Assembly (NCBI GenBank): GCA_007121455.1 | Contig: SKKN01000038.1 | Span: 1 to 64,000 of the forward strand | Direction of reading: 5' to 3' | Origin: Gemmatimonadota bacterium | Lineage (GTDB): Bacteria; Gemmatimonadota; Gemmatimonadetes; Longimicrobiales; Gaopeijiaceae | Length of the DNA: 64,000 nt | Shown here: one piece after another, positions 41,862 to 62,952 of the stretch | Position numbering within the stretch: position 1 is the first letter of the stretch | How the letters are laid out: each line of letters starts with the position of its first letter | The notes under the pieces: model-generated | Databases searched by the model: none | Told to the model about the DNA's origin: nothing | Seen by the model: only the letters and a program-made list of their open reading frames with translations | Translations under genes and position numbers: made by a program

Positions 41862-43685
41862 GTGAGGTCATCCTTCACATTCCGCATCACCCGCCTGCTC
41901 GAGACAGCGGGGGCCCCCAGATGGGCGGCCCCCGCTGTCGTCGGTCTCGGGCTGGCGGCCGCCCTGTTGGAAGGAGCAGGGCTCTATCTCTTCATCCCCC
42001 TCGTGGGAGCCCTGGGGGCTGCGGGCGAAGCCGGCTCCACCCTCGAGGCACTGTTCGAACGGGCCCTCTCCCCGATCCCGCCCGACTGGCGCATTCCGCT
42101 CCTCGTGGGCGGCCTGTTCGTGAGCATCGTTCTGAAGAATGGGATCATCCATCTCAACCACTACGTGACGCATTACGTGGAGGGACTCGTCGCGCACCGG
42201 CTGCGGACGCTCGTGATGCGTCAGACGGTCGCGTCCTGCATTGATTATCGGGTGGAAAACCGCCGAACCGACATCGTGGAGACCATCACGAGGAACACCT
42301 GGACCCTCGGCGCTGCGCTGATGGAGACGTACAGGATGCTGGTCAGCGGAGTCACCCTCACCGTCTTCGTCGCCCTCCTCTTCGTGATCTCCCCGGGGCT
42401 GACCGCGGTCGCGCTCCTCTGCTTTGGCAGCATCGCGGCGGTCGTGCACCTGGTGACCCGAAAGGCGCAGACGGTCGGCGAGGAGGTGGTGGAGCAGAAC
42501 AGGTCCTTTGGTCTCCGGATGTGGGAGAGCATCACCGGGCTCCGACTGATCCGAAGCTGTGCCCGCGAGGAGCACGAGATGTCCCGCTTCGAGTCGGAGT
42601 CGGACAACGTTCGGCGCCGCTTCCTCCACATGAATGTGCTCTGGTCGATCCCTGCACCTGCGTCCGAGGTCGCGGTGGCGTTCGGTATCGGTGCATTGAT
42701 CCTCCTCGGCCACTGGGCGGGAATCGGCTTGCCGTCCCTCGCCGCGTTCCTCGCTCTGCTCACGAGGACGCGCGGGCCGGTGCGGGAGCTGATGTCGGCC
42801 CGCGTGGGGTTCGATTCCTCCTATGGAGCGGTGGCGGACGTCGCGGACTTCCTCGAGCGTACTCGAGAGCCGTACCTCACCAGTGGGAGTCGGACCTTCC
42901 GACGGCTGCGACATGGCATCGAGCTTCGGGAGGTCACCTTCCAGTACGTGTCGGACGAGCCGCCGGCACTCGACAACGTATCGGTCACGATCCTCCGCGG
43001 GAGGACCACGGCCATCGTGGGTCGGTCCGGAGCGGGAAAGTCCACACTCCTGGACCTCCTCTTCCGGTTTCGCGACCCCACCTCCGGGGAGGTTCTGGTC
43101 GATGGCACCCCGCTTCCCGCGTTCGACCTCGGAAGCTGGCGGAGCCGGATCGCCCTCATGTCGCAGGACGTCTATCTCTTCCACGACACCGTTGCGGTGA
43201 ACATCGGGTTTGGAGGAGTCGACGCCTCGCCTGGTGAGATCCGGAGAGCCGCCGAGATCGCCGGTGCCCACGAGTTCATCATGGGGCTGCCGCGGGGATA
43301 CGACACGATCATTGGCGATTCGGGGGTCCGCCTTTCCGGCGGCCAGCGCCAGCGGATCGCCCTCGCGCGCACGATCCTCCGCGATCCCGAGATACTGCTT
43401 CTTGACGAAGCGACGAACGCTCTGGATCAAGAGACGGAGCGTGCATTCCACGAGGCGCTGGAGGAGTATGCGGAGGGAAGGACCGTCGTCGTCATCGCGC
43501 ACCGGCTTTCGACCGTGGAGAGCGCCGACCAGATCCTCGTGCTCGAGGAGGGGAGGGTCGTCGAGACGGGCCCTCCGGAAGCGCTCCTCGTTTCCGATGG
43601 GCCTTTCGCGCGTTTACACCGAGGCATGAAGTCGAAACCGCGCAGGCTGTCGGAAGCGCTGCCGGTACAGGAGACGGAGGTTTGA
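41862..43685 (+). CDS. ABC exporter, fused membrane and ATPase domains
   Basis: A 607-residue MsbA-like half-transporter. About six membrane helices fill residues 20-310, followed by an ATPase with Walker A (VGRSGAGKSTLL), signature (RLSGGQRQRIALARTIL) and Walker B (EILLLDEATNALD), plus the H-loop IAHRL. GTG start without a strong ribosome site. It lies at the edge of the glycan island and convergent with glycosyltransferase genes, so a lipid-linked glycan or a decorated lipid is the probable cargo. Confidence 0.88.
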   Translation: MRSSFTFRITRLLETAGAPRWAAPAVVGLGLAAALLEGAGLYLFIPLVGALGAAGEAGSTLEALFERALSPIPPDWRIPLLVGGLFVSIVLKNGIIHLNHYVTHYVEGLVAHRLRTLVMRQTVASCIDYRVENRRTDIVETITRNTWTLGAALMETYRMLVSGVTLTVFVALLFVISPGLTAVALLCFGSIAAVVHLVTRKAQTVGEEVVEQNRSFGLRMWESITGLRLIRSCAREEHEMSRFESESDNVRRRFLHMNVLWSIPAPASEVAVAFGIGALILLGHWAGIGLPSLAAFLALLTRTRGPVRELMSARVGFDSSYGAVADVADFLERTREPYLTSGSRTFRRLRHGIELREVTFQYVSDEPPALDNVSVTILRGRTTAIVGRSGAGKSTLLDLLFRFRDPTSGEVLVDGTPLPAFDLGSWRSRIALMSQDVYLFHDTVAVNIGFGGVDASPGEIRRAAEIAGAHEFIMGLPRGYDTIIGDSGVRLSGGQRQRIALARTILRDPEILLLDEATNALDQETERAFHEALEEYAEGRTVVVIAHRLSTVESADQILVLEEGRVVETGPPEALLVSDGPFARLHRGMKSKPRRLSEALPVQETEV

Positions 43686-43696
43686 GGATCCGCGGG

Positions 43697-45079
43697 CTAT
43701 GCGGATTGCTCGCTGCGTTCGCCGAGGGAAGTCGTTACTGGTCGGCGGACCGGGGAGCGGGACTGAGAAGAGCGGCGGACGAGCGGATCGCCGTGGTCGG
43801 ACAACTGGGGCACTGCATGCGACCGGCGCCACCCGGGGCGGAGGACCAGGGTGAGTCCCCCCCACCAGCCGCGAACCTGAGGGAGGAGAAGCCGCATGTG
43901 ATCGCTCGATCCATCGCGGAGCGCCCGGAGCGCCACCCGCAGGAAGTATTGGGGAAGCTGCAGGCCGATCCGCCGGAGATTCCCGCGATGCCGATAGCGC
44001 AGGTACTGGGCTCCGAGCGCAGCGACGTGTCCACGCATGTAGGCCTGCATCTGCTCCTCCAGCCCCCCCCAGTCCGGTCGGTGATGGTGATGGACCACGG
44101 CGCGAGGCTCGTAGAGGCAGGAGCCTCCGTCAGCGAGGATCCGATACCACAACTCCGAGTCTTCCGAGCACCCCGCGGCACCGGCTCCGAGCCGTTCGTC
44201 GAATAGCCCCACGCGCATGAAGGTCTCCCGGCGGAAAGCCATGTTCGCACCGGCCCCGAGTCGCCAGACCTGAAGTCCATGATTCAGACCTTCGGAGCGA
44301 AACCGACTCCCGAAGCGAACCGGGACGTAGCCGGTCCCGAACCCTCCGAGTTGGAGTTCGTAAAACCGTTGGGCAGGGGTGGAAAGTGAGGCCGGGAGGA
44401 CGAGACCCGTGATCGCATCCGCCTCGGGCGCTGACGCGAAGGCCCGCGCCACTTGCCCCGTCCATCCGGGATCCACCTCGACGTCGTCGTCGGTGAAGGC
44501 GATGATCGGGCGCGTAGCCGCGGCCACCCCGGTATTCCTCGCGACGCTCAGCCCCGGGCGCTTCTCGTGAAGGTGACGCACACGACGGAAGTGGGCGGAC
44601 ACGACCTGGGCGTCACCGGACTCCGAGTTGTCGACAACGATGATCTCCCCCGGCGGAGCCCGTTGAGCGTCCAGGGCGGCCAGGCACGAACGAAGCAGTT
44701 TCGGTCGGCCGCGGGTGCAGACGATCACCGACACGTCGTCCGCGGGTGTCTGCGGGTCGGCCGCGAGCGCATCGAGCACGGCGGAGGCTCCTCTGCAGGC
44801 GCGGATGTCCGCGAGGGTCGGCTCCAACTCGACTCGACCGTCCCGGCCCGCCTCGGGAACTCCTCCGAGGCTCGGCCCTCGGGCAGCGAGCTGTTTCGCT
44901 GCAAAGCGACCGGCGAGGGTGAGGATCTGGTCCTGTGAGAGGGGAAGCTCTTCCGGGACGAAGGCCTCGGCTCCCAGGGGTAGGCTGCCCCACCAGAACA
45001 CGATGAACGCGTGGCCTTCCGCAGGGTCGACCGGCGGCGCTTCGCGGCTCAGGTCCAGGTGCACCACGCGCCAGGTCAT
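43697..45079 (-). CDS. Family-2 glycosyltransferase with extra N-terminal domain
   Basis: A 460-residue protein. The GT-A core runs from SVIVCTRGRPKLLRSCLAAL through VVDNSESGDA and the DxD region IAFTDDDVEVDPGW, to the catalytic GCSEDSELWYRI. About 95 residues precede it (MTWRVVHLDLSREAPPVD, later AFIVFWWGSLPLGAEAFV) and share a pattern with the next gene. It overlaps that gene by four bases. The last 40 residues are an unusual Arg/Ser-rich tail. Confidence 0.85.
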   Translation of the reverse strand: MTWRVVHLDLSREAPPVDPAEGHAFIVFWWGSLPLGAEAFVPEELPLSQDQILTLAGRFAAKQLAARGPSLGGVPEAGRDGRVELEPTLADIRACRGASAVLDALAADPQTPADDVSVIVCTRGRPKLLRSCLAALDAQRAPPGEIIVVDNSESGDAQVVSAHFRRVRHLHEKRPGLSVARNTGVAAATRPIIAFTDDDVEVDPGWTGQVARAFASAPEADAITGLVLPASLSTPAQRFYELQLGGFGTGYVPVRFGSRFRSEGLNHGLQVWRLGAGANMAFRRETFMRVGLFDERLGAGAAGCSEDSELWYRILADGGSCLYEPRAVVHHHHRPDWGGLEEQMQAYMRGHVAALGAQYLRYRHRGNLRRIGLQLPQYFLRVALRALRDGSSDHMRLLLPQVRGWWGGLTLVLRPGWRRSHAVPQLSDHGDPLVRRSSQSRSPVRRPVTTSLGERSEQSA

Positions 45080-46302
45080 GCGACCCCCTCGCGAATCCGG
45101 CGGCTCCGCTCGAGCGACCGGTCGTATTCGCCCAGGAGCCCCTGGATCCCACCCCGGATCTCGGCGGCGATCATCCGAGCGCGGCCCGGGCGTAGCTGAA
45201 CGGATGCTTTCACGAACCCCATGGTCTTGTCCACGAACCACCAGCGGAGCATGGCGCTATGCCGCGGGTGAAGGGCCGGGTCCGTGCGGCGACACTTGGT
45301 GAGGAACGCCATGAATCCGAGGCCCCAGCTCCAGTACTGGCGGCGGAGCTGATTCAGCGTTTCACGGTGTTCGTGAAAGACGGTGAATCCCGGCTCGTAG
45401 ACGATCGTGCGGCCCGCCCGGATCACGCGATAGAAGATGTCCAGATCCCCCCCGCCCGGGAGCGGCGCGCCGGTGTCCAGCGCTTCGTCGAAGCCCCCGA
45501 GCCGGTCGAGGAGCCTCCGGTCGAAGGCCATGTTGCACCCGGCACCCACCACTCCCACGCCCACCGGGTGCAATGCATTGTGCATCTTGGCCCCGCGGTG
45601 GTGGATCCGGGTGAACCCCCGTCCAAACCCTCCACGACGCTCGAACTCGATTTGAGCCGAAGAATCGAGCCGGAGCGGCAGGACCAGCCCCGTGTATCCT
45701 CCGGCATTCGGATAGTCAGACCACGCGGCGTAGAGCCCATCCAACCAACCCGAATCGACGACCACGTCATCGTCGAGGAAGGCCAGCAGGTCACCGGCTG
45801 CGGTCCTGAGCGCCGCGTTGCGCGCGAAATCGAGCCCGACACGGGGCTCCTCCACATAACGCACCCCCACGAAATCGCCCACGACCTCTCGGGTTGCCGC
45901 ATCAGCGGAAGCGTTGTCGACGACGAGGACTTCGAGCGACCGAAAAGGCGATGCCGGACGCAGGACCTCGAGCGACTCGAGAAGGCGAGCCAAGCCCTGC
46001 GGTCGGTCCTTCGTGCAGACCGCCACCGTCAGGGAGGGTGCCGGCCCCGGATCAGGATGCGGCCACCGCCCGCTGAGCTCCGCTTCGACCTCGAGGGCGA
46101 GCACCTTACGAGTGAACTCCCGCTCGACGGCCTGGCGGAGAGCACGGGGGGATAGGGTCCCACCCGGCGGGACCGGCTGGAGCGTGAAGCCGACCGGGCG
46201 CCCGTGCCAGCGCCCCACGAGGGCGAACCCGTCCTCGACCCCCTCCGGCACCAGCTCCGGCAAGGGCTCGGACAACTCGAGATCGACGATCCGGTAGGGC
46301 AT
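45076..46302 (-). CDS. Family-2 glycosyltransferase with the same N-terminal domain
   Basis: A 408-residue protein. GT-A core: TVAVCTKDRPQGLARLLESL, LVVDNASADA, LLAFLDDDVVVDSGWLDGL, GGGDLDIFYRVIRAGRTIVY. The first 85 residues (MPYRIVDLELSEPLPELVPE; ALVGRWHGRPVGFTLQPVPP) parallel the N-terminus of the following paralogue. DDD is the likely metal site. First of a pair of overlapping genes; probably adds sugars to the island's polysaccharide. Confidence 0.86.
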   Translation of the reverse strand: MPYRIVDLELSEPLPELVPEGVEDGFALVGRWHGRPVGFTLQPVPPGGTLSPRALRQAVEREFTRKVLALEVEAELSGRWPHPDPGPAPSLTVAVCTKDRPQGLARLLESLEVLRPASPFRSLEVLVVDNASADAATREVVGDFVGVRYVEEPRVGLDFARNAALRTAAGDLLAFLDDDVVVDSGWLDGLYAAWSDYPNAGGYTGLVLPLRLDSSAQIEFERRGGFGRGFTRIHHRGAKMHNALHPVGVGVVGAGCNMAFDRRLLDRLGGFDEALDTGAPLPGGGDLDIFYRVIRAGRTIVYEPGFTVFHEHRETLNQLRRQYWSWGLGFMAFLTKCRRTDPALHPRHSAMLRWWFVDKTMGFVKASVQLRPGRARMIAAEIRGGIQGLLGEYDRSLERSRRIREGVA

Positions 46303-46350: not shown

Positions 46351-47325
46351 TCATCGTGACGGAGCGCCTCGGGCGCGGGCGTGGCGCTGGATGAGCCGAA
46401 GCGCATTGGACGGAGATGCAGCCGCAGCGCAGACGGCGAAGGCTGCGGCGGAGATCCGGGAGCCTTCCGACGCGGAGAGAAGGCAGTGGGAGCGGAGGTA
46501 CCAGAAGAGGTCGTGTTTGATGTCGCTCCACCGGCGTGCGCTCCAAAGGGGCCGGTCCGCCTGGAACTCCTCCAGGGTGGGGATGGGCTCCGAACGCCGC
46601 CGTGCGTCATCGCGGGCCATGATCAACCGGAGCATCGCCCGCTGCTCGAACAGTCGCTCGAAGGACATGCTCTGCCGGTGGATCCGGTACCGGATCAGCG
46701 GCTCCGGCACGACCACGATGACGTGGTCGTGCGCGACGCGGGTCCAGAGCTCGGTGTCCGCTGCGGGCCCGAACAGCGGATCGTAGCCTCCGAGTTCGAG
46801 GATCGTGGGACCGTGCATCAGCACCGAGGGATGCACGAGTGGTACGCGCCGACCCGTCGCGCGCATCTCCAGGAAGCTCTCGGTCGTGGTGGGACCGATC
46901 GCCCTCCGGCCGATGGTGCGCCCTTCGGAATCGATCTCGACGGCCCAGGTACCGATCACGCGAGCCATCGGTTCTCGGGCCAGGACCTCGAGTTGCCGCT
47001 TCAGCCTCTCCGGCTCGCAGACGTCATCGTGGTCCAGGATCGCAATCCATTCGTGACGCGCCAGCTCCAGACCACGGTTCAGGGTGACAGGCTGATCCCT
47101 GTTTCGCTGTCGTACGATCCTGATTCGATCATCTGCGGCGGCGTAGCGAGCGAGGGTGCGCTGGGTTCCGTCCGTTGAACCGTCATCGAGGATGAGGAAC
47201 TCGAAGTCGTCGTGCGTCTGCGCCAGGACGCTCTCGATTGCCGTGGAGAGGTACCGCTCACCGTTGTGGACGGGCATCAGCACCGTGACCGGGGGAAGCG
47301 ACTTGGCTCGTTCGACGGGATTCAT
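46351..47325 (-). CDS. Family-2 glycosyltransferase, single domain
   Basis: A 324-residue glycosyltransferase: VTVLMPVHNGERYLSTAIES, FEFLILDDGSTDGTQRTL, then the DxD ILDHDDVCEPERLKRQ, and GPAADTELWTRVAHDH in the acceptor region. AGGTGGCG lies just before the ATG. It follows the carrier-protein gene by about 220 bases on the same strand and precedes the glycosyltransferase pair, so one transcript may run through the whole series. Confidence 0.87.
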   Translation of the reverse strand: MNPVERAKSLPPVTVLMPVHNGERYLSTAIESVLAQTHDDFEFLILDDGSTDGTQRTLARYAAADDRIRIVRQRNRDQPVTLNRGLELARHEWIAILDHDDVCEPERLKRQLEVLAREPMARVIGTWAVEIDSEGRTIGRRAIGPTTTESFLEMRATGRRVPLVHPSVLMHGPTILELGGYDPLFGPAADTELWTRVAHDHVIVVVPEPLIRYRIHRQSMSFERLFEQRAMLRLIMARDDARRRSEPIPTLEEFQADRPLWSARRWSDIKHDLFWYLRSHCLLSASEGSRISAAAFAVCAAAASPSNALRLIQRHARARGAPSR

Positions 47326-47546
47326 CGCCACCTGGGCACAAAGGGTTGAAAGGTGGAGAACATCTCTCTCCCGTGAAGATGTGGACGAACCCGGAAGAGC
47401 AAGAACGATACCCGAGCGGAGCCGCCACTCCGGGGCTGGGCGCTTGCCTGCGTTCCGTGCGAGGTGCTGTGTATGCAACGCCTCGCCCTTCGGCGCCGGT
47501 GCAACAGTGCGTAGGCACACCGCGACAGGCTCGGGCGAAGGCTCCG

Positions 47547-47810
47547 TCAGACGATCCCGAAACGTTTCTCCAGAAAGGAGGTGATCGCTCCCACACTACG
47601 GAAGTCCTCGATGTCCAGGTGCTCCACATCCACCTCGACCTCGAACGCCTCCTCCAGGCGTACCAGGATCTCCACGAAGGTGAGGGAATCCAGGAGCCCT
47701 GTGACGAGTACGTCCGTGTCTTCGCCGACCTGCACCTCGAGACCCTGGTGGAGGATCTCCGCCACCCGCGCCGCGATGGTAGGGTCACGCGTCTCCGCCT
47801 TCGGTAGCAT
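47547..47810 (-). CDS. Discrete acyl/peptidyl carrier protein
   Basis: An 87-residue carrier protein. The phosphopantetheine site is Ser42 in TGLLDSLTFVEILVRLEEAF, the classic (D/L)SL motif, and acidic helix 2/3 residues follow (EVDVEHLDIEDF). AAGGAGG precedes the ATG. It overlaps the acetyltransferase gene as TAATG and lies in one run with an amino-acid adenylation protein, which could charge it. Confidence 0.9.
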   Translation of the reverse strand: MLPKAETRDPTIAARVAEILHQGLEVQVGEDTDVLVTGLLDSLTFVEILVRLEEAFEVEVDVEHLDIEDFRSVGAITSFLEKRFGIV

Positions 47811-48376
47811 TATCGTTCCTCCTTGGTCAGGGCAGCGGTGGCGATTCCTCCACTCCCCTTCGTTGGTTCCGGGTAGCTGCGAAATTCCTCCGCCAGGAGG
47901 TCGAAGTGGAGCCGGTCGTAGAGCTGTCCCTTCACCCGGTGGCAGCGGCGCCTTCGTCCGACCTGGGTGAAGTTCAGCCGCTCCAGGACCCGCCGCCCGC
48001 CCCGATTGGCCTCGACCGTCCATGCAAATACGGACTGCAGGCCCATCACTCGGAAGCCGTGGTCCAACATTGCGGAGACCGCTCGGACCGTGAGGTTGCG
48101 ACGGCGGTACTCTTGCTCTCCCAGAACGAACCACACCTCTCCCGTGCCGAACTCTCGGTCGACGTTGCTCAGGCCCACCACTCCCACGGGAGTCGGCGCG
48201 TCGCTCGGGCCGTAGACGCGCAGGCAGTGAAGGCTGCGCTGGGACATGATCTTGAGGCCCATCGCATCGACGCTCCTGCGGCCTCCCCCGAAGTCGAGCC
48301 AGCGCGAGTTCTCCTCGTCCTGCAGCCATCCGGCAACGGTCTCGAACTCGTCCCCATGGATCGCTCTCAAGTTCAT
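47810..48376 (-). CDS. GNAT-family acetyltransferase
   Basis: A 188-residue GNAT protein. The acetyl-CoA region is seen in FVLGEQEYRRRNLTVRAVSA (in place of Q/RxxGxG/A) with MLDHGFRVMGLQSVFAWTVE and NRGGRRVLERLNFTQVGRRR. It resembles RimJ/RimL-type enzymes that acylate amino groups. It is inserted between adenylation protein and carrier protein, with overlaps on both sides, so it probably modifies what they assemble, or transfers the carrier-bound group. Confidence 0.84.
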   Translation of the reverse strand: MNLRAIHGDEFETVAGWLQDEENSRWLDFGGGRRSVDAMGLKIMSQRSLHCLRVYGPSDAPTPVGVVGLSNVDREFGTGEVWFVLGEQEYRRRNLTVRAVSAMLDHGFRVMGLQSVFAWTVEANRGGRRVLERLNFTQVGRRRRCHRVKGQLYDRLHFDLLAEEFRSYPEPTKGSGGIATAALTKEER

Positions 48377-50022
48377 GCTGTCTCCTTCATCCAGTCTTCG
48401 ATTTTCCGTCGGTCCACCTTGCCCCGGCTGGTCAAGGGGAGCTGATCGACCGCCTTCCACCGCACGGGGATCATGTAATCCGGAAGGATCCGGGCGAGGT
48501 CTTCCTTGAGCGCTCTGGGCGAGGCGGCCTGGCCGTTCGCCGGAACGAAGGCACAGCCGAGGAGCTTTCCGGGCACTCCATCGCGAGCGAACCCCACGAC
48601 CGCACACCCTTCCACCTCGGGAAGAGAGCGTAGGGCACCCTCCAGCTCTCCGAGTTCCACGCGAAACCCTCTCGTCTTCACCTGTTGGTCCTCGCGGCCC
48701 AGGAAGTGCACGTTCCCCTCCCCGTCCATCCTTCCCAGGTCACCGGTCCTGTAGATTCGGGACCCCTGCGACTTTTCGTCGAACGGATCGGGCAGGAAGA
48801 CCTCGCGCGTTCGTTCCGGCTCTCGCCAGTAACCCGGACTCAGCCCGGCCCCCCGAATGTGAAGGTGACCCACCGACCCGAGCGGCACCGGGCGCAGGCC
48901 GTCATCCAGGAGGAGCAACTCCTCACCGGCGCAGGCCTTTCCGATCGGAACCGGCGCCGCGGATTCGTCCGGGACTTCCGGAACCCGGTAATAGCTGCTC
49001 GCGACCGTGGTTTCGGTAGGGCCGTAGAGGTTCGCGAATCGGGTATGCGGAAGCCGATCCATCCAGTAGCGGAGGGATGCGTTCGGAAGCACGTCCCCGC
49101 ACCAGGTCATCCACCGCAGGTCGGGAAGGTCGTCCGGGCGAACGGCGTCGAACCGCGTCGCGTACTCGAAGAACGAGGGCACGGAGAGCCAGTGCGTGAG
49201 CTTCGCCTTCCTCATGAATGCCACGATCTTGGGCGGCAGGAGCTTGAGCTCCTCCGGGACCATGTGGAGCTCGGCACCGGAGGCGAAGGTCGCGTAGATG
49301 TCGAACGTGGAGAGATCGAACGTGAGCTCGGTGTACCCACCGATGCGATCCTCACGACTCAATCCGAAATAGGAGACCGCCCATTCGATGAAGGTGGTGA
49401 CATTCCTGTGGGTGACCACCACGCCTTTGGGTGTGCCCGTCGAGCCGGAGGTGAAGAGGATGTACGCCGCATCGTCAGGGTGTCCGGCCGATTGCGGCGA
49501 AGAGGAGGGGAGCGCCTCGACATCGGACCAGGTGAAGGCCGCTTCGAACTCCCGGCTGGGAGACGCATCGACTGAGGGCGCCTCGGAACGAATGGTGCCC
49601 GCCGATTCGGGCTCGATGTCCATCCAACCCAACCGGACGGGTTGGTCGAGCGCACCCTCCCCCGCGAGCTCCTCGAACCTCGCGCGGGTCGGCGGGCCGG
49701 CGAGGATCACGGTAGGCTCACATCTCGCGATTACCTTCGCCAGCCGCGCGGCCGGGCTTCGGACCTCGAGAGGAACATAGATGCAGTCGGCTTTGAGGAT
49801 GCCGACGATGACCGCGAGGGCCATGGGTGTTCGTGGCAGGAGGAATGCCACTCGATCCCCTCGGCGGCACCCCACCTCCCGAAGAGCCCGGGCCAGCCGG
49901 TTGCTCGTGCGTTCCAGGTCCTCGTATGTGAGAACCTCATCGGTCCGAACCAGCGCTCGTCCGTCCGGATCCGCTTCTGCGGCACGCGTCACCCACTCGT
50001 GGAGGAGATGAACGGCCGTCAC
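48373..50022 (-). CDS. Stand-alone amino-acid adenylation enzyme
   Basis: A 549-residue ANL-family enzyme with all A-domain core motifs: LTYEDLERTSNRLAR, LKADCIYVPLEV, YILFTSGSTGTPKGVVVTHR, FDLSTFDIYATFASG, NLYGPTETT, RTGDLGRMDGEGNVHFLGRE, QVKTRGFRVELGELE and the catalytic Lys in LTSRGKVDR. The Asp of FDLSTFD (amino-group contact) argues for an amino-acid substrate rather than a fatty acid. It has no attached carrier or condensation domain, so it presumably charges the nearby discrete carrier protein. ATGA overlaps join it to both neighbours. Confidence 0.88.
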   Translation of the reverse strand: MTAVHLLHEWVTRAAEADPDGRALVRTDEVLTYEDLERTSNRLARALREVGCRRGDRVAFLLPRTPMALAVIVGILKADCIYVPLEVRSPAARLAKVIARCEPTVILAGPPTRARFEELAGEGALDQPVRLGWMDIEPESAGTIRSEAPSVDASPSREFEAAFTWSDVEALPSSSPQSAGHPDDAAYILFTSGSTGTPKGVVVTHRNVTTFIEWAVSYFGLSREDRIGGYTELTFDLSTFDIYATFASGAELHMVPEELKLLPPKIVAFMRKAKLTHWLSVPSFFEYATRFDAVRPDDLPDLRWMTWCGDVLPNASLRYWMDRLPHTRFANLYGPTETTVASSYYRVPEVPDESAAPVPIGKACAGEELLLLDDGLRPVPLGSVGHLHIRGAGLSPGYWREPERTREVFLPDPFDEKSQGSRIYRTGDLGRMDGEGNVHFLGREDQQVKTRGFRVELGELEGALRSLPEVEGCAVVGFARDGVPGKLLGCAFVPANGQAASPRALKEDLARILPDYMIPVRWKAVDQLPLTSRGKVDRRKIEDWMKETA

Positions 50023-51041
50023 ACCGACGCCCTCGCCAGGACCGTGTCGAACGCTGCGCTGGCATTCTCGAGGTCCGCTTCGTCGAAGGGAACGTCAACG
50101 AGAAAGGTTCGACAGCCAGATTTGATGTATCGCATCAGCTCTCGGCCCACATCATGGTGACTTCCCACGAGGTATGGGCACATGGTCTTGTAGTTCTCGA
50201 ACGGGGTGAGCCAATACGGATCAGCTTCGTCGACCTTGACGTCCACCAAGGCGGTGAGGTCCCGGTGCCACTCCGAGTCCGATGTCTTTCGGGCCATTTC
50301 GCGCAGGAGCTTTCCCTTTCGGGAAGGGGGGAAGCGCTCGTGGGCGATCCGCCATGCCGTCTGTCTGCTCTCGCGCGCAATGATCCCCATTCGAAAGCCG
50401 GGCTTGCGCTCCGCCGGAGCGAGATAGGGCTCTTGATCGCCGGGCGGCTTGGGGTAGGCGACCGGACGAGCCCCCAGATGATCCGCGGCCCTTCTTCCCG
50501 CTTCGGAGGAGCCTGAAACGAACACCTCCGGCAGGAGGTCGTTGGGGAGGTGAGGTGACAGTTTCAGGTCGCGGACGCGGTAGAAGTCCCCCTCGAAATT
50601 CACCGTCCCCCCTCGGAGGAGGTCCATGATGATCGTGGTGTACTCGATGAGGCGGTCGTATCGGCGATCATGAGGCGTCCGGTCGTCGAGCGCCTCCAGA
50701 TCGTTCTTGAAACCGCCCGCCACCATGTTGAGATACGTACGGCGTCCGTGGAACTGGGCGAGCGTGGTCACGAGCTTCGCCACGGCATAAGGATGCATAT
50801 AGGCCGGCTGGACCGCGACGAGAGGGATGAGCCGCTCGGTCGCCTGGACCAGGAGCTGAGCAACGATCCAGGGGTCTACCAGCCGGTTGTCCGCGTAGAT
50901 CAGGCTCGCCGAGAACCCATGTTTCTCGCTCCATCGCCCCACCTCCGTGATGCGCTTTTCGTAGGCGGAAGTCGGCACGTCCGCGGATGCGGGCAGGGCC
51001 GTGATCAGTTCGATTTCGATCCCGTTTCGCTCGATGAGCAT
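50019..51041 (-). CDS. LLM-class flavin monooxygenase (luciferase-like)
   Basis: A 340-residue TIM-barrel flavin enzyme of the bacterial-luciferase/SsuD group: GRWSEKHGFSASLIYADNRL, DPWIVAQLLVQATERLIPLV, AQFHGRRTYLNMVAGGFKND, then LLPEVFVSGSSEAGRRAADH, which is the flavin-phosphate loop. FMNH2 must be supplied by a reductase that I do not find here. It is the first gene of the cassette and overlaps the adenylation gene. In natural-product loci such enzymes oxidise carrier-bound or free amino/acyl groups. Confidence 0.87.
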   Translation of the reverse strand: MLIERNGIEIELITALPASADVPTSAYEKRITEVGRWSEKHGFSASLIYADNRLVDPWIVAQLLVQATERLIPLVAVQPAYMHPYAVAKLVTTLAQFHGRRTYLNMVAGGFKNDLEALDDRTPHDRRYDRLIEYTTIIMDLLRGGTVNFEGDFYRVRDLKLSPHLPNDLLPEVFVSGSSEAGRRAADHLGARPVAYPKPPGDQEPYLAPAERKPGFRMGIIARESRQTAWRIAHERFPPSRKGKLLREMARKTSDSEWHRDLTALVDVKVDEADPYWLTPFENYKTMCPYLVGSHHDVGRELMRYIKSGCRTFLVDVPFDEADLENASAAFDTVLARASV

Positions 51042-51399: not shown

Positions 51400-52443
51400 A
51401 TGGCAATCGAGCTACTACCTCTCACATCCGACCGACTCACGGAGCTCGAGACCCTTCTTCTGCCCGTGTGGCAACGGCGGTGGGACCGGCTGCAGAGCGA
51501 ACGAATCTTTCGCTGGCGCTTCCTGGAGCGACCTGAAGGGGAAGGGCTCATCGCCTACGACAACGGTCGGGCGGTGGGATTCATCGATTCGTTTTTTCGC
51601 CAGTACCGAACGCGCGCCGGCCTGATCCGGGTCCGGGAGCCCGCGGATTGGTACTGCCATCCCAGCTACAGGCCGCTCCTCAGTATCCGACTCATCCGGA
51701 AGCTCATGCAGAGCGGGGAAGCGCTCCTCGTAGTTGGCGGAAACCCCAACACCCGCAACGTTCTTCCAAAGCTGGGCTACAAGGCGCTGCCAGACGTCGC
51801 CTCGTATATGCTCCCGACCGGTACCGGGGCTTTCGCGAAGGTACTTGCCGGGACGGTCCGATTTCCGCTCCACCGTGTGCCACGGTTTCTGATCCGACCC
51901 CTCTCGGTGAGAACGCTTTGGGGCGGCCGTGCGCACCGCTCGTCGTTGGAATTCGGAATGCGGCAGGTACAGGGCCCGCCGCCCATGCCCGAGGCCTCCA
52001 CGAACGGAGGATCCTACGGGTTGGCGCCCGTGTTCCCGACGGAGGAGCACGACTGGTTCCGGAATGCCCCTGGCCGGATGGGGGAGTTCATGTGGTTCGA
52101 ATTCGAGACGGCCCATGCGAAGGGCCTCTCCTTCGTTCGCCTGTACCAGGACGGGCCATTCCGTGCGGCCCGGATCCTCCACATCGAAGCCTCTCGTCCC
52201 TCGGTACTCCTCTACGACTCCATCCTGAGAGGGACGATAGGGGCACTTCTCCCCTACCGGCCTCAATGGATCACGGCCCGCTTCACCTCTCCAATGGCCC
52301 GTCAGGCCATCCAATCCGCCGGCTTCAAGGGAGTGGGCGCGTACAAGGCGTTTTGGTGGCACCGTGATATCCCACCACCCGAAGGCCCCCTCCATTTGAG
52401 CTGGACAACGAGCGACGAGGGCCTGCTCCCCTATCCGAATTGA
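51400..52443 (+). CDS. GNAT-fold acyltransferase, FemAB/CelD-like type
   Basis: A 347-residue protein with the two-lobed GNAT architecture seen in polysaccharide loci: LLPVWQRRWDRLQSERIFRW then GLIAYDNGRAVGFIDSFF in the first half; LIRKLMQSGEALLVVGGNPN and TRNVLPKLGYKAL near the first acyl-CoA-like loop. The second half repeats the fold loosely. It may add acyl or amino-acyl groups to sugars. The assignment to a precise family is uncertain. Lies on its own strand between the monooxygenase cassette and the lyase pair. Confidence 0.65.
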   Translation: MAIELLPLTSDRLTELETLLLPVWQRRWDRLQSERIFRWRFLERPEGEGLIAYDNGRAVGFIDSFFRQYRTRAGLIRVREPADWYCHPSYRPLLSIRLIRKLMQSGEALLVVGGNPNTRNVLPKLGYKALPDVASYMLPTGTGAFAKVLAGTVRFPLHRVPRFLIRPLSVRTLWGGRAHRSSLEFGMRQVQGPPPMPEASTNGGSYGLAPVFPTEEHDWFRNAPGRMGEFMWFEFETAHAKGLSFVRLYQDGPFRAARILHIEASRPSVLLYDSILRGTIGALLPYRPQWITARFTSPMARQAIQSAGFKGVGAYKAFWWHRDIPPPEGPLHLSWTTSDEGLLPYPN

Positions 52444-53779: not shown

Positions 53780-54706
53780 CTACGATTCGCCGTATTTCAC
53801 GGCCCTCGGCTCAGCCGACTCACCTCCTGAGGGGGAGGGGCGGGTCGGCTTCAGGTCCTTCGGGGTCGAGGAAAGGAACACCTTCACCGGGCTGTACCAC
53901 GTCGCGCTGTAGCGCTCCGAGGCAACCAGGTCGAAGGAGCCCTGCAACCAATCGAGGAGCGAACGACTCGTGAACTCGGTGAGGTGTTTGGGCACGTCTC
54001 CGGCATCCTCTCCTGCGCTCCGTTCCTCGAGGCCGTCCTTCACCTTGTGGGCCATGACCTTCACGGCGGAGATCGGACCTCGCACCTCGTGCACGCTCTG
54101 CAGGATGTGCAGCCGTCCGCCGGGCTTAAGCACCCGGCGAACTTCAGCCAGAAACCCTTCCTTGTCGCGGAAGTGGTCAAGAGCGGCAAGCACCGTCACA
54201 TCGGTGAAGGTGGCGTCCTTGAACGGAATCGATTCTGCAAGAGACTGCACGAACGGGAAGTCCGCGACCTCCGGGAGAGCAATCGGATCGAGCCCGACGT
54301 ACTGGACGCGCTCCAGGTCGAAATGAGAGCGGAGCTTTCCGGGTCCGCATCCCACGTCGAGGAGAGTACCCTCCTGGATCGCAGTGAACCGAGCGAAAGC
54401 GGGCTGTGGTTGCGACTTCTTTGCCAGTCGCGTCACCGGTCGGTCCGGGTGGTCGATTCGCTCCTTCCTCCGCGCTTCGAACTTGGCGAGGTGGTCGCGC
54501 CACAGCTTCCAGTCGTTGCCGGTCAGGGCGTCATGGGGAATAAGGTGAGGTACTCCGAAACGAACCGGATAGACCGCCTTGCATCGGGTGCATCGAAGCT
54601 CCCCCTCCTCGAAGGGTTGCCCGGCGACGGTTTCAGGAGCCGTGTCCAGTTCCTTCTTTTGACAGGTCGGGCACCACAACATGGACAAGATTTCCGGTGT
54701 GAGCAC
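53780..54706 (-). CDS. SAM-dependent methyltransferase with N-terminal zinc ribbon
   Basis: A 308-residue protein. The first 55 residues carry a Trm112-like ribbon with paired Cys (MLWCPTCQKKE; LRCTRCKAVYPVRFGVPHLI). The class I methyltransferase follows: GTLLDVGCGPGKLRSHFDLE, FPFVQSLAESIPFKDATFTD, FLAEVRRVLKPGGRLHILQS. GTG start is chosen because GGAGGG lies six bases ahead; an in-frame ATG further up has no ribosome site. Such ribbon-methyltransferases often occur in glycan loci and methylate sugars or lipid carriers. It sits between two paralogous lyase-like genes. Confidence 0.85.
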   Translation of the reverse strand: MLTPEILSMLWCPTCQKKELDTAPETVAGQPFEEGELRCTRCKAVYPVRFGVPHLIPHDALTGNDWKLWRDHLAKFEARRKERIDHPDRPVTRLAKKSQPQPAFARFTAIQEGTLLDVGCGPGKLRSHFDLERVQYVGLDPIALPEVADFPFVQSLAESIPFKDATFTDVTVLAALDHFRDKEGFLAEVRRVLKPGGRLHILQSVHEVRGPISAVKVMAHKVKDGLEERSAGEDAGDVPKHLTEFTSRSLLDWLQGSFDLVASERYSATWYSPVKVFLSSTPKDLKPTRPSPSGGESAEPRAVKYGES

Positions 54707-54824
54707 TCGACGCCCTCCGGGTAGTGGATGAGACGGAAGCGATCGCCATGGATCAGCGCCCCGAAACGCAAATTCTGAGCCAGGCGAGGCGGCGGAATGG
54801 CGCCCGCTCTGTTTCCCCGATGCG

Positions 54825-54862
54825 AAAAGGGGTGGAAGCCCGAGTCTTCGGACTTCCACCCC
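54825..54862 (-). terminator. Intrinsic terminator after the FN3-lyase gene
   Basis: A 10-base stem GGGGTGGAAG / CTTCCACCCC with an inner CCGA/TCGG helix is followed on the minus strand by UUUU. It lies directly downstream of the large lyase-like gene, inside the N-terminal upstream region of the methyltransferase gene, which must then have its own promoter or depend on read-through. Confidence 0.8.
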
Positions 54863-56909: not shown

Positions 56910-57568
56910 TTCTGCTTTCTCCGTTCAGAGTACCGTCGGAGGTGCAGGGGAATCGCGCCTGAGCGCTCAGTCACCGTACTTCAGGATCTCCGGGCCCCGT
57001 GGGTCCGAACAAACGAAAGCCGCCGGCGAACGTCCCCGTGAACCTCCCGGAATGCGTCGCTGGCGGCTCGGCTGGCGTGACATGTCGTGCTCATTGCGAC
57101 ATGCTGTAGCCCCGTCACTCTGCGCCACCACCTTTCGGCGGCTTTGCTCTGAGCAGCGACCGACTGCTCGATTCGTTGTTTTTTGTGGCTACCCGCCTGG
57201 GGGCCACCCTCGCTCCCGGTCGCGGGGCGAGGCGTTCAGGTCAGTTCAATTCATTCGCTGCCCTCCTTTCCCGGTGTTCGGCAGATTCGGTTGCTGCATG
57301 CGGACAACAAACGTACGGCCCGCCACCGGAGAAGCGTTGCCTTGAGGCAACGGTCCTGCGGTGCGCGAACAACATACTGTCCATTGACGGGGGCGCAACC
57401 AGTGGTGCTGGCGCCACGGTTCGGATTGGCTCCTTGCGGTGAAAAGTGCTCCCGCCGCATCCGTGTGGGACCGGACCTTGCACTGACCTGGGGAGGACAA
57501 GTCGAGCCCTGGCCGTTGACGGGAAAAGCTCGTTGGCTTGACCCACGGACATCAGGAGTGTGCGGTGC
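56910..57568. other. Long non-coding stretch with a strong hairpin
   Basis: No gene is recognisable on either strand. The base composition is patchier than elsewhere, with runs such as TTGTTTTTTGTGG and AACAAACG. CGTTGCC-TTGA-GGCAACG at 57335-57352 is a perfect 7-base stem with a tetraloop. The region could contain promoters for both flanking genes or a non-coding RNA. Confidence 0.45.
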
Positions 57569-58706
57569 ATGAGGATATGGCGAACGAGTCCGGCCCTGCT
57601 CTCGGCTGGAGAGCTGGATATCTGGCGGGAGATCCATCGGAGCCGTGAGGCGTATTTCAGCCCCTTTTTCCACCCTGCGTACACCCTGGCGATGGCTTCG
57701 GTGATTCCGGGCGTTGAAGTGGCGGTACTGGAGGAGGGCGGCGGCGAGATCGTCGGCTTTCTCTCTTATGAGAGGAGCCGATGGAATGTAGGGGTCTCTC
57801 CCGGAGGCCGGCTGTGTGATCATTCCGGACCGATCCTCCGGCCCGGTGTCCGGTATGACCCCTTGCGCCTGGTGCGGGATTGTGAGCTCGCCGGCCTCCA
57901 CATCCGGGGTGCTCCGGCGGCATCTCCGAAGCTCCTCCCGTACGTTCGTACGCGAGTGGGAAGCCTTACAGATCGAGTTGAGAGACGGGTTTACAGAGTA
58001 CCGGGAGATCCGTCGCAGAGCCGGTTCGAACTTCGTAACCAAAGAACTTCGCAAGCGTCGCAAGCTGGAGCGGGAGATCGGGCCCGTCCGCTTCGTGGAG
58101 CACACCCTGGATCCCGATGCCTTTACCGCCCTGCTTGCGTGGAAATCAGAGCAGAGAAGGCGAACGAAGACTGTGGACATTCTCCAGCGGGGCTGGGCCG
58201 TGGATGCCCTCGACCGCATCCGAACCATCGAGATGGAGGGGTTTTCGGGGTGCTTCTCGGCGCTCTACGCAGGTGATCACCTGCTGGCCGTTCATCTCGG
58301 GATGCGGAGTCATGGGGTCTTACATCACTGGTTCCCTGCTTTCGACCGAGCTTTCGGAAAGTACTCCCCAGGAATCCTCCTGCTGATCGAGATGACGAGG
58401 GCGTTCGCCGACCGGGGGGTGACCCGTATCGATCTGGGGAAAAGGGGAGAGAGTTACAAGGACAGAGTTGCGACGGCGTCCAATGTCCTGACGGATGTGA
58501 CGATGGACCGGAGCCCGATCCTCCGGGTCGTTACGGAAGCGCGCTATCGGACGCGCTCATGTGCAGACGGATCGGTGGCGGGTGAGCATCTGCGTCAGGG
58601 GAAACGTCTCGCCCTGCGGTGCTATCACTCCGTAGCAGGATCGCTGGGGCGGTCACCGGCGCCGGAACCCACGCGGCCCAAGCCCAAGGCCCCGGGTGAG
58701 AACTGA
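57569..58706 (+). pseudogene. CelD/BcsL-like GNAT acyltransferase, frameshifted
   Basis: The first frame begins MRIWRTSPALLSAGELDIWR with an AGGAG-type site and carries the N-terminal half (VAVLEEGGGEIVGFLSYERS, then LCDHSGPILRPGVRYDPLRL). The second half is in another frame: FVREWEALQIELRDGF, KELRKRRKLEREIGPVRFVE, FSGCFSALYAGDHLLAVHLG, LHHWFPAFDRAFGKYSPGIL and RIDLGKRGESYKDRV, as in CelD-type acyltransferases. The change of frame lies near 57890-57945. One or two bases lost or gained would restore the usual 370-residue enzyme. Overlaps the end of the family-4 glycosyltransferase by 82 bases. Confidence 0.75.
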
Positions 58707-60043
58707 TCCGGCGATTCCCCGCCCGCTTCCGCTACCGGCGCGGATCCTCCTTGCCGTTCGATGTGCTTCAGAATCTCGCCCGCCGTGCTTCGCAGGTTGA
58801 ATTCACGGAGAACCCTGTCCCGGCCGGCTTTTCCCATGCGCTCTCGCATGTCGGGATTCCCGGCCAAGCGAGCCAGGGCATCGGCAAGAGCGGAAGGATC
58901 CCCCGGAGGGACGAGGAGCCCCGATTCTTCGTGCTCGACCAACTCTGGAATTCCGCTCAACGCGCTCGCTACGACGGGAAGCCGCATGGCCATCGCTTCC
59001 ATGAGGGCCACGGGGATGCCTTCGCGTTTCCCCGAAGCCGTCGGATGGCTCGCGAGGACGGCCACATGGGCTCGGTCCAGCGCTCGAAGGACTTCCGGGC
59101 GGGGGAGGCTTCCCATGAGCAGGACCTTCCCTTCGAGCCCCGCTTCAGTGATCGCTCGGGCGAGCCTCTTCCGGTGCGGTCCCGCACCAACCAGCTCACA
59201 CTGAAGATCAACTCCCCGTTCGATCAAAAGGCGACAGGCCTGGATGAGAAATCGGTGCCCTTTGACCTCCTCGAGCGAAGCGACGCAAACGAGCCGCAGA
59301 GGCAGGTTCGCACCCTCCTTTTCGTCCCGGACCGCACTCGGCACGAAAGCTTCCACATCCACTCCGCAGTGGATCACCGCGACCTTCTCCCGCACGTCCT
59401 CCCCGCATTCTTCCACGATCAGGTTCCGGTTGTACTCCGACACAGTGGCGACGAACTGCGCTGACTGGACTTTCGACCGGAGCATCCTTCGCTCCACGTG
59501 CAGGTCCGATCCATGGGCCGTGAAGCTGTAAGGGATTGCGGTCAGGCGGTGAATCGCCCACGCCGCGAGGGCAGGGTGATTCGCGAAGTGAGCATGGACA
59601 TGATCGACTTCCAGGCGCTCCATCTCCCGAGCGAAGAGCACGACCTTCGGGAGGATTCCGATCCCACCGAGCAGGAAGTTGGCGCTCCCCCAGGTCCCGA
59701 AAACCACATCCCGCCATAATGCCAGATACGCGCGGGTGTGCCGACGGAGAAAGAACCAGTTCGCTCGGAGGATGGAGGGAGAGATAAAGGGTCGAAATCG
59801 TGCCTTGGAGACGAGGTGATCGGCTTCCGGATGCCGGGTGCGGGACCGGTGGCGAAGAAGGGGGAAGATCTCGACATCCGCGCCCTCTGCCTCCAGGGCG
59901 AGCATCTCGTAGAGCACGAACGTCTCCGTGAGCTTCGGGAAGCGAGACATCACGTAAGCCACCCGGGGAGCAGGCCCACCGTCTTGTGGAGTGCCGGAGG
60001 GGCTGTCGAGCCTGGAGAATGGGTCTCGCGGAACGCCCGTCAT
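58625..60043 (-). CDS. Family-4 glycosyltransferase
   Basis: A 472-residue GT-B enzyme. N-terminal domain: VAYVMSRFPKLTETFVLYEM, HVHAHFANHPALAAWAIHRL, SFTAHGSDLHV. C-terminal domain: LRLVCVASLEEVKGHRFLIQ, ELVGAGPHRKRLARAI, the E-x7-E region REGIPVALMEAMAMRLPVVA. The opening 'SRFPKLTETFVLYEM' is typical of exopolysaccharide glycosyltransferases. The last 40 residues are a loose tail that overlaps the acyltransferase remnant. Likely transfers a hexose in assembly of the repeat unit. Confidence 0.9.
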   Translation of the reverse strand: MTGVPRDPFSRLDSPSGTPQDGGPAPRVAYVMSRFPKLTETFVLYEMLALEAEGADVEIFPLLRHRSRTRHPEADHLVSKARFRPFISPSILRANWFFLRRHTRAYLALWRDVVFGTWGSANFLLGGIGILPKVVLFAREMERLEVDHVHAHFANHPALAAWAIHRLTAIPYSFTAHGSDLHVERRMLRSKVQSAQFVATVSEYNRNLIVEECGEDVREKVAVIHCGVDVEAFVPSAVRDEKEGANLPLRLVCVASLEEVKGHRFLIQACRLLIERGVDLQCELVGAGPHRKRLARAITEAGLEGKVLLMGSLPRPEVLRALDRAHVAVLASHPTASGKREGIPVALMEAMAMRLPVVASALSGIPELVEHEESGLLVPPGDPSALADALARLAGNPDMRERMGKAGRDRVLREFNLRSTAGEILKHIERQGGSAPVAEAGGESPDQFSPGALGLGRVGSGAGDRPSDPATE

Positions 60044-60180: not shown

Positions 60181-61767
60181 TCAGCCCAGAATCCACCGAA
60201 CGAGTGGGATTCGGGAGAGTTCGGGAAACGTTTCGTGAATTCCGATGAAGCGATGAGTGAGCCTGAGGAGAAGCAGCGAGATCACTCCGACCAGTGCCAC
60301 CCCCTGATACAACGAGAGGCTCACTACCTGCTGAAGGGCGATCAGCCCGGCGAGCAGGACGAAGATGACGCAGTGCACCCGTACGAACCGGAAATCGATG
60401 AGTCGAACCCCGGTCCCGGTCCACCAGAGACCGAGATGCTTGAACAGTGCCTGGAAGATCATGAGCATCGTCACGGCGATGGCCGCGCCGAGCGGTCCGT
60501 ACGCCGGTATGAGCAGGAACCCGAGCCCGATCCCGAACCCGGCGGCAAGGAGATCGCTGGCGACCAGAAAACGCACCCTCCCGTACACGGTCAGGGTTTT
60601 CGCATTGTATCCCATGGACGCGTACACGAAGTGCCCCACGGCAAGGAGTGCCAGGAGGGTTCCGGATCCAGCGTATTCTTCTCCGAAGAGAACGACGGCG
60701 AGGGGCTCCGCCATGGTGACCGAAACGGCGAAGACCGGAAAGCTCAACACGGAGATCCAGGTCGCGGTCCTCCAGTAGAGATCACTGATGTCTTCGCTCT
60801 GTTTTCGCGCGTACATGCGCGAAGCCAGGGGTACGAAGAGAAACGCGAATGCTTCGGAGGCGACGAGGTTCACCCCTGCGATCGGCAGGACGGCGCGGTA
60901 CCCGGCCACCGCGGTCGTCGTGTGAAAGTATTCCAGGAGCAGGACGGCTACGGACCCTCGGACCAGGCCTGGAAAGTCAGCGGTCACCAAGGGGATGCTG
61001 AAGGTGTAGATCTCGCGCACCGGAACGATGAGGCGTTTCGGTCGGAGGTACTGGAGGAGTCCCTTCTGCCGCCAGTCCCGAATCAGGATCGCTACGTAGA
61101 GCCAAACTCCGATCAACCCGCCGATCACGTATCCGTACGCCAGAAGGTGGGCGTCTCCCGCGACGAGCATGACGAGGAGCACCGCGGCCAGCTTGAGGCC
61201 GGGGCCGACCACATGACGCCGGAAAAAGATGGCCCGGGCCCCGATGAACACCGCCGCGAGCTTCTGGAGAAGCGTATCCAGGGCGTGGAGCGGTGTGAGC
61301 GCAATCAGGATCAGGAGGACGGACAGGGAGAGTGGATCCGTCACGAGCGTCCCCTCGATCACTCCCCGGAGACCATGTAGCAGGAGGACGACCGCGAGCC
61401 CCAGCCCCACCACCGTTCCCACGGCCAGCACGATCGTGCCGAATGCGCGCCCCGTCTCACCCCTTTCATGATACATCGGCACGAACCGTGGCAGGGCTTT
61501 GCCGAGGCCGAGCAGGATCATGCTCGACCCGATGGATGCCACCCCCAGGGCGTAAGCGAATGCGCCGTATTCCGCCACGGCGAGGTGGCGAACGGTGAGT
61601 ACCTGGACCGCGAGGTTCAGCAGGACGGAGACGATGCGGCCGAAAAGCAGGAGACTCGAGCCGCGCACGAATTCGCGAGTGGTCGCGGTCGCGGCCGAAC
61701 CCTCCGTCGGTCGGGGCGGTGGCTTGGGAGGGGGAAACCCGACGCGCGGCGGCTCAGGTCGATTCAT
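60181..61767 (-). CDS. Wzx-type oligosaccharide flippase
   Basis: A 528-residue polytopic protein with about 14 helices of the MVF/polysaccharide-transporter superfamily: FVRGSSLLLFGRIVSVLLNL, VRHLAVAEYGAFAYALG, LGKALPRFVPMYH, then LASRMYARKQSEDISDLYW, and FGEEYAGSGTLLALLAVGHF in the second half. It would move lipid-linked repeat units across the inner membrane. No Wzy polymerase or chain-length regulator is in the window. The Pro-rich first 20 residues are cytosolic. Confidence 0.88.
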   Translation of the reverse strand: MNRPEPPRVGFPPPKPPPRPTEGSAATATTREFVRGSSLLLFGRIVSVLLNLAVQVLTVRHLAVAEYGAFAYALGVASIGSSMILLGLGKALPRFVPMYHERGETGRAFGTIVLAVGTVVGLGLAVVLLLHGLRGVIEGTLVTDPLSLSVLLILIALTPLHALDTLLQKLAAVFIGARAIFFRRHVVGPGLKLAAVLLVMLVAGDAHLLAYGYVIGGLIGVWLYVAILIRDWRQKGLLQYLRPKRLIVPVREIYTFSIPLVTADFPGLVRGSVAVLLLEYFHTTTAVAGYRAVLPIAGVNLVASEAFAFLFVPLASRMYARKQSEDISDLYWRTATWISVLSFPVFAVSVTMAEPLAVVLFGEEYAGSGTLLALLAVGHFVYASMGYNAKTLTVYGRVRFLVASDLLAAGFGIGLGFLLIPAYGPLGAAIAVTMLMIFQALFKHLGLWWTGTGVRLIDFRFVRVHCVIFVLLAGLIALQQVVSLSLYQGVALVGVISLLLLRLTHRFIGIHETFPELSRIPLVRWILG

Positions 61768-61848: not shown

Positions 61849-62952
61849 TCATGCACCTTCTGAACGATTGCCGGAGAGAGCCGAGTTCAGTGCTTCCAGC
61901 AACCCCTCGGCCGATAAGCCCGTGGTGACCCCGCTCGGATCATCGAACCGGTGCCGCCACCGGTCCACTGCGGAGAACCAGGGGCGCATCCGAAGACGAA
62001 AGATGAGTGGGGTCGTGCTCCGGGTGACATTCGTCCGGCGAAGCCGGAGGGGGTCGGTCACCCCGATGTGATTGAGCCCGTCGAGGCAGGTGAAACCCAG
62101 CTCGAAACCTTCCTCCCGGGCCGCCTGGACCGTTTCCCTGTCGTGGAATCCGTACGGGTAGGCGATCACCGGCGCTACGTGCGGGAGAGCCCCCTGGAGA
62201 TCCTCCATGCATTCTTTCAGCTCGCTCCGAATTCGATCCTTGGAGGTACGGGGCAGGGGAGGATGCCAACGAGTGTGCGCGCCGATGGAAAGCCCTTCCC
62301 CTGCCAGCGCCCGGAGCTCATCCCAGTCCAGGACGTTGGGGGGCTGCTCCCCCTCTGCCGCCCCCGGAAAGGCCTGGTCGAGCTCGTCCACGATTTCGTT
62401 CGCCTCCTCGTGTGTCAGCCCTTTCATCTGACGGCGGAGTCGGGACCAGTCCGTGGCGCGAGATCGGTCCGAAGCATGGTCGGCAGAGCGCGACGAGACG
62501 GCGGACCCTTGCGAGCTCGCGACCGCCCTCCGGAAGAGTCGATGGAGTCGATCCCACCAGAACGCTCGCTCCGGACGTCCGGGATAGGCCGTCGGAACGA
62601 AAAGCGTGGCGGGCAGACGGAGCCCTTTCAATATTGGCCAGGCGATCTCCCCAACATCCCGATAGGCGTCGTCGAAGGTGATGAGGACCGCCCGCTCCGG
62701 GAGGGTGGCAATCCCGCGAAACGCAGCCAACACCTCCTCGAGTGAGACGACGGAGTACCGGTGTGCGAGGTGGCGCATCTGGCGCCGGAAACCATCCGGG
62801 GAGACACTTATCAGAGCGGGGTCGAGTGCCGGCGTCGCTTCCGGGTCGGCCACCCTGTGGTAGACGAGAACCCGCAGGGGACGTGCGTGGGCCGGGCCCA
62901 CACCCCGATGGAGCGGTGTGCCTTTGGCCGGATTCCGGGAGCCACCGCTCAT
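61849..62952 (-). CDS. Polysaccharide deacetylase (NodB-like)
   Basis: A 367-residue hydrolase. Motifs: LRVLVYHRVADPEATP, AVLITFDDAYRDVGEIAW (catalytic Asp and metal Asp), IGAHTRWHPPLPRTSKDRI (the H-x3-H pair) and VIAYPYGFHDRETVQAAREE. A 70-residue insertion with many Ser/Arg lies between motifs 1 and 2. No signal peptide is evident; location is uncertain. The start overlaps the phosphotransferase stop as ATGA. It fits removal of N-acetyl groups from the exported glycan or its precursor. Confidence 0.87.
   Translation of the reverse strand: MSGGSRNPAKGTPLHRGVGPAHARPLRVLVYHRVADPEATPALDPALISVSPDGFRRQMRHLAHRYSVVSLEEVLAAFRGIATLPERAVLITFDDAYRDVGEIAWPILKGLRLPATLFVPTAYPGRPERAFWWDRLHRLFRRAVASSQGSAVSSRSADHASDRSRATDWSRLRRQMKGLTHEEANEIVDELDQAFPGAAEGEQPPNVLDWDELRALAGEGLSIGAHTRWHPPLPRTSKDRIRSELKECMEDLQGALPHVAPVIAYPYGFHDRETVQAAREEGFELGFTCLDGLNHIGVTDPLRLRRTNVTRSTTPLIFRLRMRPWFSAVDRWRHRFDDPSGVTTGLSAEGLLEALNSALSGNRSEGA

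Follow-up and report, generated by a model that had tools for sequence, protein, structure and literature searches.

A monooxygenase, adenylation and carrier protein cassette in exopolysaccharide loci that looks like an undescribed route for decorating surface sugar polymers

Results and Discussion

A four-gene cassette conserved across phyla

Here, we analysed a stretch of 64,000 nucleotides from a Gemmatimonadota bacterium (assembly GCA_007121455.1, contig SKKN01000038.1, positions 1 to 64,000; hereafter the window), which carries at positions 47547–51041 a cassette encoding a bacterial luciferase-type (LLM) flavin monooxygenase, a stand-alone amino-acid adenylation enzyme (A), a GNAT acyltransferase and a discrete carrier protein (T). 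The LLM-A-T set was found in about 50 loci from many phyla, and in an independent set of loci it is strongly associated with exopolysaccharide (EPS) genes. The cassette looks like an apparently undescribed way to decorate surface sugar polymers. Our preferred reading, put forward tentatively, is that it would build a modified aminoacyl group, held on its own carrier protein and destined for an extracellular polysaccharide, by a route resembling the Dlt and Alm systems with two added steps.

All four genes lie on the minus strand. The LLM gene (50019..51041, 340 aa; PF00296, 99.5 bits) is followed by the A gene (48373..50022, 549 aa), which belongs to the adenylation domain family of nonribosomal peptide synthetases (NRPS; TIGR01733, 393 bits against a cut-off of 317), the GNAT gene (47810..48376, 188 aa; PF13302, 51 bits; 256.7 bits to a family hidden Markov model that includes this protein) and the T gene (47547..47810, 87 aa; PF00550, 33.8 bits), whose product has the phosphopantetheine site GLLDSL. 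The LLM/A, A/GNAT and GNAT/T pairs overlap by 4, 4 and 1 bases, respectively, and a Shine-Dalgarno-like stretch, AAGGAGG, is situated immediately upstream of the T gene. Family scans detected no condensation, thioesterase or KS domain within the cassette. These results bear out the original prediction made from the DNA letters, which had listed the same four parts with overlaps of 1–4 bases, an adenylation enzyme of the amino-acid type, and no condensation, thioesterase or polyketide domain.

A protein search with the LLM, using one genome per species, returned 29 loci. The family occurs in 16 of 298 genomes of the phylum of the window. Further searches, in groups labelled after the locus on which each was centred, located it in 9 of 297 genomes of Acidobacteria type, 7 of 95 of Rokubacteria type and one of 274 of Gammaproteobacteria type. 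Almost every LLM gene is followed by A and then by T, an order that is kept far beyond chance and is not a local accident. In four loci (L147, L150, L151 and L160), the genes run Wzc, tyrosine kinase, Wzy, glycosyltransferase family 4 (GT4), LLM, A, GNAT, T, tandem GNAT and FemAB-type protein. A sugar phosphotransferase is additionally present in L128, L147 and L160, and a polysaccharide deacetylase or PgaB-like gene in L013, L150, L151 and L160. The window contains the gene kinds of this four-locus block in a rearranged order.

Some loci deviate from this plan. KASIII and 3-hydroxyacyl-CoA dehydrogenase genes after T, or a second A with a class I aminotransferase, were observed in L005:10629-12995, L158:290-6638 and L128:16363-19403, suggesting that some genomes extend the group held on the carrier. 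NodU-type carbamoyltransferase genes also lie repeatedly near LLM-A-T (L003, L006, L012, L013, L019, L022, L055, L060 and L063).

Association with exopolysaccharide loci

In the first set of loci, EPS markers were present in 12 of 32 long loci compared with 3 of 26 control stretches (p = 0.035). As this enrichment is weak, fresh loci with controls from the same genomes served as an independent test. After removal of two duplicate loci, any EPS marker was found in 11 of 13 fresh loci versus 3 of 28 control stretches (p = 7e-6), and genes for chain-length determination, kinase, sugar transferase or polymerase in 8 of 13 versus none of 28 (p = 1.3e-5), the controls being contig starts chosen by number and no strict random draw. 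In a minority of LLM-A-T loci, the stretch examined is free of glycan genes. The original prediction had proposed looking for the same gene order beside glycan genes in other genomes, and had named siderophore loci free of glycan genes in relatives as evidence that would speak against it; the order was indeed found there, and with 11 of the 13 fresh loci being glycan loci, such siderophore loci are not the rule.

An exchangeable N-acyl slot between the adenylation and carrier genes

The position between A and T, or adjoining them, is occupied by a GNAT in 19 loci and by a formyltransferase in 12, with both present in 0/31. The first set contains 10 loci with GNAT (window included) and 11 with a Formyl_trans_N enzyme, while the fresh loci, scored with profiles built from the first set alone, contain 9 and 1, respectively; neither set has a locus with both. 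The formyltransferases retain the catalytic N-x-H and D, leaving the N/H/D active site intact. On a quick tree of the LLM proteins, with SH-aLRT support only, the type of N-acyl enzyme switches at least three times, and two of these switches are forced by starred branches.

The simplest reason for this swap between GNAT and a catalytically intact formyltransferase would be a shared intermediate that carries an amine, capped with acetyl in one case and formyl in the other. Because a formyltransferase can fill the same slot, N-acylation of the carrier-bound amino acid is a more likely role for the GNAT than transfer of the amino acid to a sugar. Furthermore, the closest paralogue of the GNAT in the genome of the window (L202:14014-14532, minus strand, 48% identical) is situated between NRPS genes with carriers and a phosphopantetheinyl transferase, a setting that favours action on a carrier. 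The original prediction had assigned transfer to a sugar to either the GNAT or the nearby FemAB/CelD-like enzymes; the slot swap makes the GNAT part less likely, and the FemAB/CelD-type (or tandem-GNAT) neighbours are the better candidates.

One such candidate family, termed c3, adjoins T on its 3' side in 14 loci. The member that was scanned has no Pfam match, and its model (pLDDT 88) displays a tandem GNAT fold like that of N-myristoyltransferase and Eis. In the window, the protein encoded at 51400-52443 on the plus strand shows weak similarity to the c3 family over its full length, and possibly either this protein or the CelD/FemAB-type one acts as the final transferase.

Predicted substrate of the adenylation enzyme

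The binding pocket of A was read by motif alignment at GrsA positions 235 to 331. The window enzyme has D235, L236, F239, L278, T299, C301, L322, V330 and A331 (DLFLTCLVA), and 32 A enzymes have DLFFLCLIA; all 44 of 44 enzymes, that of the window included, share D235, L236, C301, L322 and A331. L236 and C301 of the family align with L248/C316 of AlmE and L198/C269 of DltA, the residues reported to select glycine and D-alanine (PMC11253843). This common Leu/Cys pair predicts a glycine- or D-alanine-type substrate, so that the A enzyme most likely activates a small amino acid of this kind. Known glycans include some whose amino sugars bear N-acetyl-D-alanyl and N-acetylglycyl groups (PMC3210612), which fits both the predicted substrate and the GNAT. 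For the pocket code itself, no paper was found in the open-licence literature.

The monooxygenase and a proposed mechanism

The AlphaFold model of the window LLM (pLDDT 89) has the alkanesulfonate monooxygenase MsuD as its top PDB match (TM 0.77-0.80, about 24% identity). An assignment as SsuD/MsuD was rejected, with only 94 bits to TIGR03565 against a cut-off of 518, leaving a likeness of fold only. LLM homologues with 39-50% identity are found in plasmid natural-product clusters together with peptidyl carrier protein (PCP), AMP-binding enzymes, and P450 or halogenase, suggesting that the LLM family works on carrier-bound substrates.

Combined, these features can be arranged into a putative pathway. 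The A enzyme would load T with a small amino acid that it has activated, glycine or D-alanine being the likeliest, after which the LLM, with FMNH2 and O2, might oxidise the carrier-bound aminoacyl group at the alpha-carbon or the nitrogen. The GNAT would then cap the nitrogen with acetyl, a step that the formyltransferase would replace with formylation in other loci. Finally, a GNAT-fold transferase, such as the tandem GNAT beside T in relatives, would move the group to a sugar amino or hydroxyl group before export.

Comparison with known systems

The Dlt system (DltA, DltC, DltB and DltD), responsible for teichoic acid D-alanylation, likewise combines a stand-alone amino-acid adenylating enzyme with a discrete carrier to serve a cell-surface polymer. 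The cassette A shares the Leu/Cys pocket pair of DltA, and the cassette carrier resembles DltC; however, the cassette has an LLM monooxygenase and an N-acyltransferase in addition. Curated models also place both proteins outside this system, since A reaches 306 versus 476 bits for NF003417 and 296 versus 560 for TIGR01734, and T reaches 34.4 bits for the DltC model NF003464, whose cut-off is 68. No DltB (MBOAT) or DltD was seen when proteins encoded at 41.9-64 kb of the window were scanned, a scan that included no search aimed at DltB.

AlmE, AlmF and AlmG, which glycinylate lipid A in Vibrio, similarly consist of an adenylation enzyme, a carrier and a transferase acting for a surface glycolipid, and AlmE possesses the same Leu/Cys pair. 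In contrast to the cassette, AlmG is an LPLAT-type transferase, and the Alm system has neither a monooxygenase nor an N-acyl step and lies outside EPS polymerisation loci.

Many relatives reside in EPS loci containing a FemAB-like protein and XrtA-type chain-length, kinase and Wzy/O-ligase homologues, recalling the XrtA/PEP-CTERM (exosortase) system, but these homologues do not reach the cut-offs of the XrtA models. The XrtA AMP-ligase model TIGR03098 was rejected for A as well (253 versus 592 bits). A search for exosortase (PF09721) in 9 genomes detected it in 5 but not in the genome of the window (95.6% complete); therefore, the window locus does not belong to the XrtA systems. Curated cut-offs thus rule out an assignment to Dlt, SsuD or XrtA.

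The PCP-bound natural-product pathways of Tritonibacter, Gemmobacter, Rhizobium and Streptomyces plasmids share with the cassette the related LLM, carrier proteins and AMP-binding enzymes. They differ by having P450, halogenase or acyl-CoA dehydrogenase and no glycan genes, and their LLM proteins fall outside the EPS-locus family in the quick tree. For the combination LLM-A-GNAT-T, nothing relevant was found in the open-licence literature.

Alternative explanations

Several observations weigh against decoration of a polysaccharide as the role of the cassette. The LLM family, given its homologues in natural-product clusters, is not glycan-specific. For the Gemmatimonadota loci of the first set taken alone, the link to EPS is not significant (4/14 versus 3/26, p = 0.21). 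The best match of A among stand-alone enzymes of the PDB is by profile the proline enzyme PltF (6o6e, 369 bits), ahead of DltA (346), and proline is kept as a possible substrate candidate on this sequence match. The window member is also divergent: its LLM sits on a long branch of the tree, its A pocket deviates from the family at positions 278, 299 and 330, its GNAT has the CoA loop YRRRNLTVRA where relatives have RGYxTRA, so that the usual glycine is gone, and the window lacks a close copy of c3.

The main rival, which we consider rather unlikely, is that the product would be a free small metabolite, an N-acylated and oxidised amino-acid derivative, for instance a signal or a modulator of biofilms, with biosynthetic genes that accompany EPS loci. 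A precedent exists in the N-acyl amino acid synthase genes that adjoin the EPS-associated PEP-CTERM/exosortase system (PMC7293339). The natural-product clusters with PCP, P450 and halogenase, in which the LLM family also occurs, and the variant loci with KASIII, 3-hydroxyacyl-CoA dehydrogenase, second A and aminotransferase are likewise in its favour. However, the loci have no conserved thioesterase or other release enzyme, and the module lies between polymerase/glycosyltransferase genes and FemAB/tandem-GNAT transferases as one block in several phyla.

The exchange of GNAT for formyltransferase also brings to mind hydroxamate siderophores of the pyoverdine and vicibactin type, in which N-hydroxylation is followed by either a formyltransferase or an acetyltransferase. 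Under this alternative, which matches the slot swap, the LLM would N-hydroxylate the carrier-bound amino acid, and the GNAT or formyltransferase would then make a hydroxamate, giving a siderophore or metal-binding glycan. This seems improbable, as the LLM is nearest to alkanesulfonate monooxygenases and not to the ornithine hydroxylases of the SidA/PvdA type, the pocket points to Gly or D-Ala instead of ornithine or lysine, and the scan of neighbour proteins revealed no recognisable siderophore gene. A more specific version is a long shot: the LLM would N-hydroxylate glycine or D-alanine, and subsequent N-acetylation or N-formylation would give the EPS of soil phyla hydroxamate (metal-binding) side groups. 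GNATs and formyltransferases that act on amino sugars (ArnA/VioF type) are common in glycan loci, and ArnA is the top NCBI model of the cassette formyltransferase, albeit at 116 bits, far under its cut-off of 777. Both enzymes might then act directly on amino sugars, with LLM-A-T as a separate aminoacyl pathway in the same operon. We regard this too as having little in its favour, since the two families replace each other at a single site between A and T and are distributed in blocks along the LLM tree, and since a close GNAT paralogue lies in an NRPS locus.

Neighbouring genes in the window

The original prediction had placed the cassette in a polysaccharide locus, and this setting stands. 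Beyond T, three glycosyltransferase family 2 (GT2) genes occupy the minus strand at 46351..47520, 45076..46302 and 43697..45241 (PF00535; 112, 63 and 71 bits, respectively), followed by an ABC exporter on the plus strand (41862..43685; PF00005/PF00664), which is HepA/MsbA-like but under the HepA cut-off (NF045513, 438 versus 725 bits). On the other side, the GNAT-type and probably tandem-GNAT protein at 51400..52443 (plus strand) is transcribed divergently (PF00583, 18.2 bits, under the cut-off of 20.7). Further along are a methyltransferase with a Trm112-like N-terminus (53780..54859, minus; PF08241, 58 bits; Trm112p, 21.9 bits), a type that also occurs in EPS locus L160 (14028-15218), a GT4 (58625..60043, minus; PF00534, 122 bits), a Wzx-type Polysacc_synt flippase (60181..61767, minus; PF01943, 35.8 bits, above the cut-off of 28.2) and a reading frame with a polysaccharide deacetylase domain (61849..63990, minus; PF01522, 73 bits). 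The CelD/FemAB-type acyltransferase gene (57560..58706, plus) is split across two frames, with PF13480 matched at 109 bits in the 3' frame (57816-58706) and the 5' part in another frame, indicating a frameshift or an assembly error.

Two proteins encoded on the minus strand at 52541-53740 and 54885-56909 are paralogues with closely similar C-terminal 350 residues; the shared part has no Pfam match, and the longer one, 54885-56909, additionally contains fn3 domains and an acidic repeat. About 150 bases upstream of the latter gene lies a c-di-GMP-I riboswitch (57059-57158, minus strand; RF01051, 43.4 bits, gathering score 35), so that part of the glycan locus in the window is probably under c-di-GMP control. 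No Rfam match was obtained in seven relative EPS loci.

Implications

If the cassette does decorate polysaccharides in this way, it would join Dlt and Alm as the third route by which carrier proteins serve to place amino-acid groups on surface polymers. This route would be set apart by its redox step and its alternative N-caps, and would be spread over largely uncultured phyla of high abundance in soil. N-acylaminoacyl groups of glycans would thereby gain a genetic explanation and luciferase-type monooxygenases a new class of substrates, and the side groups of EPS could be predicted from a genomic marker.

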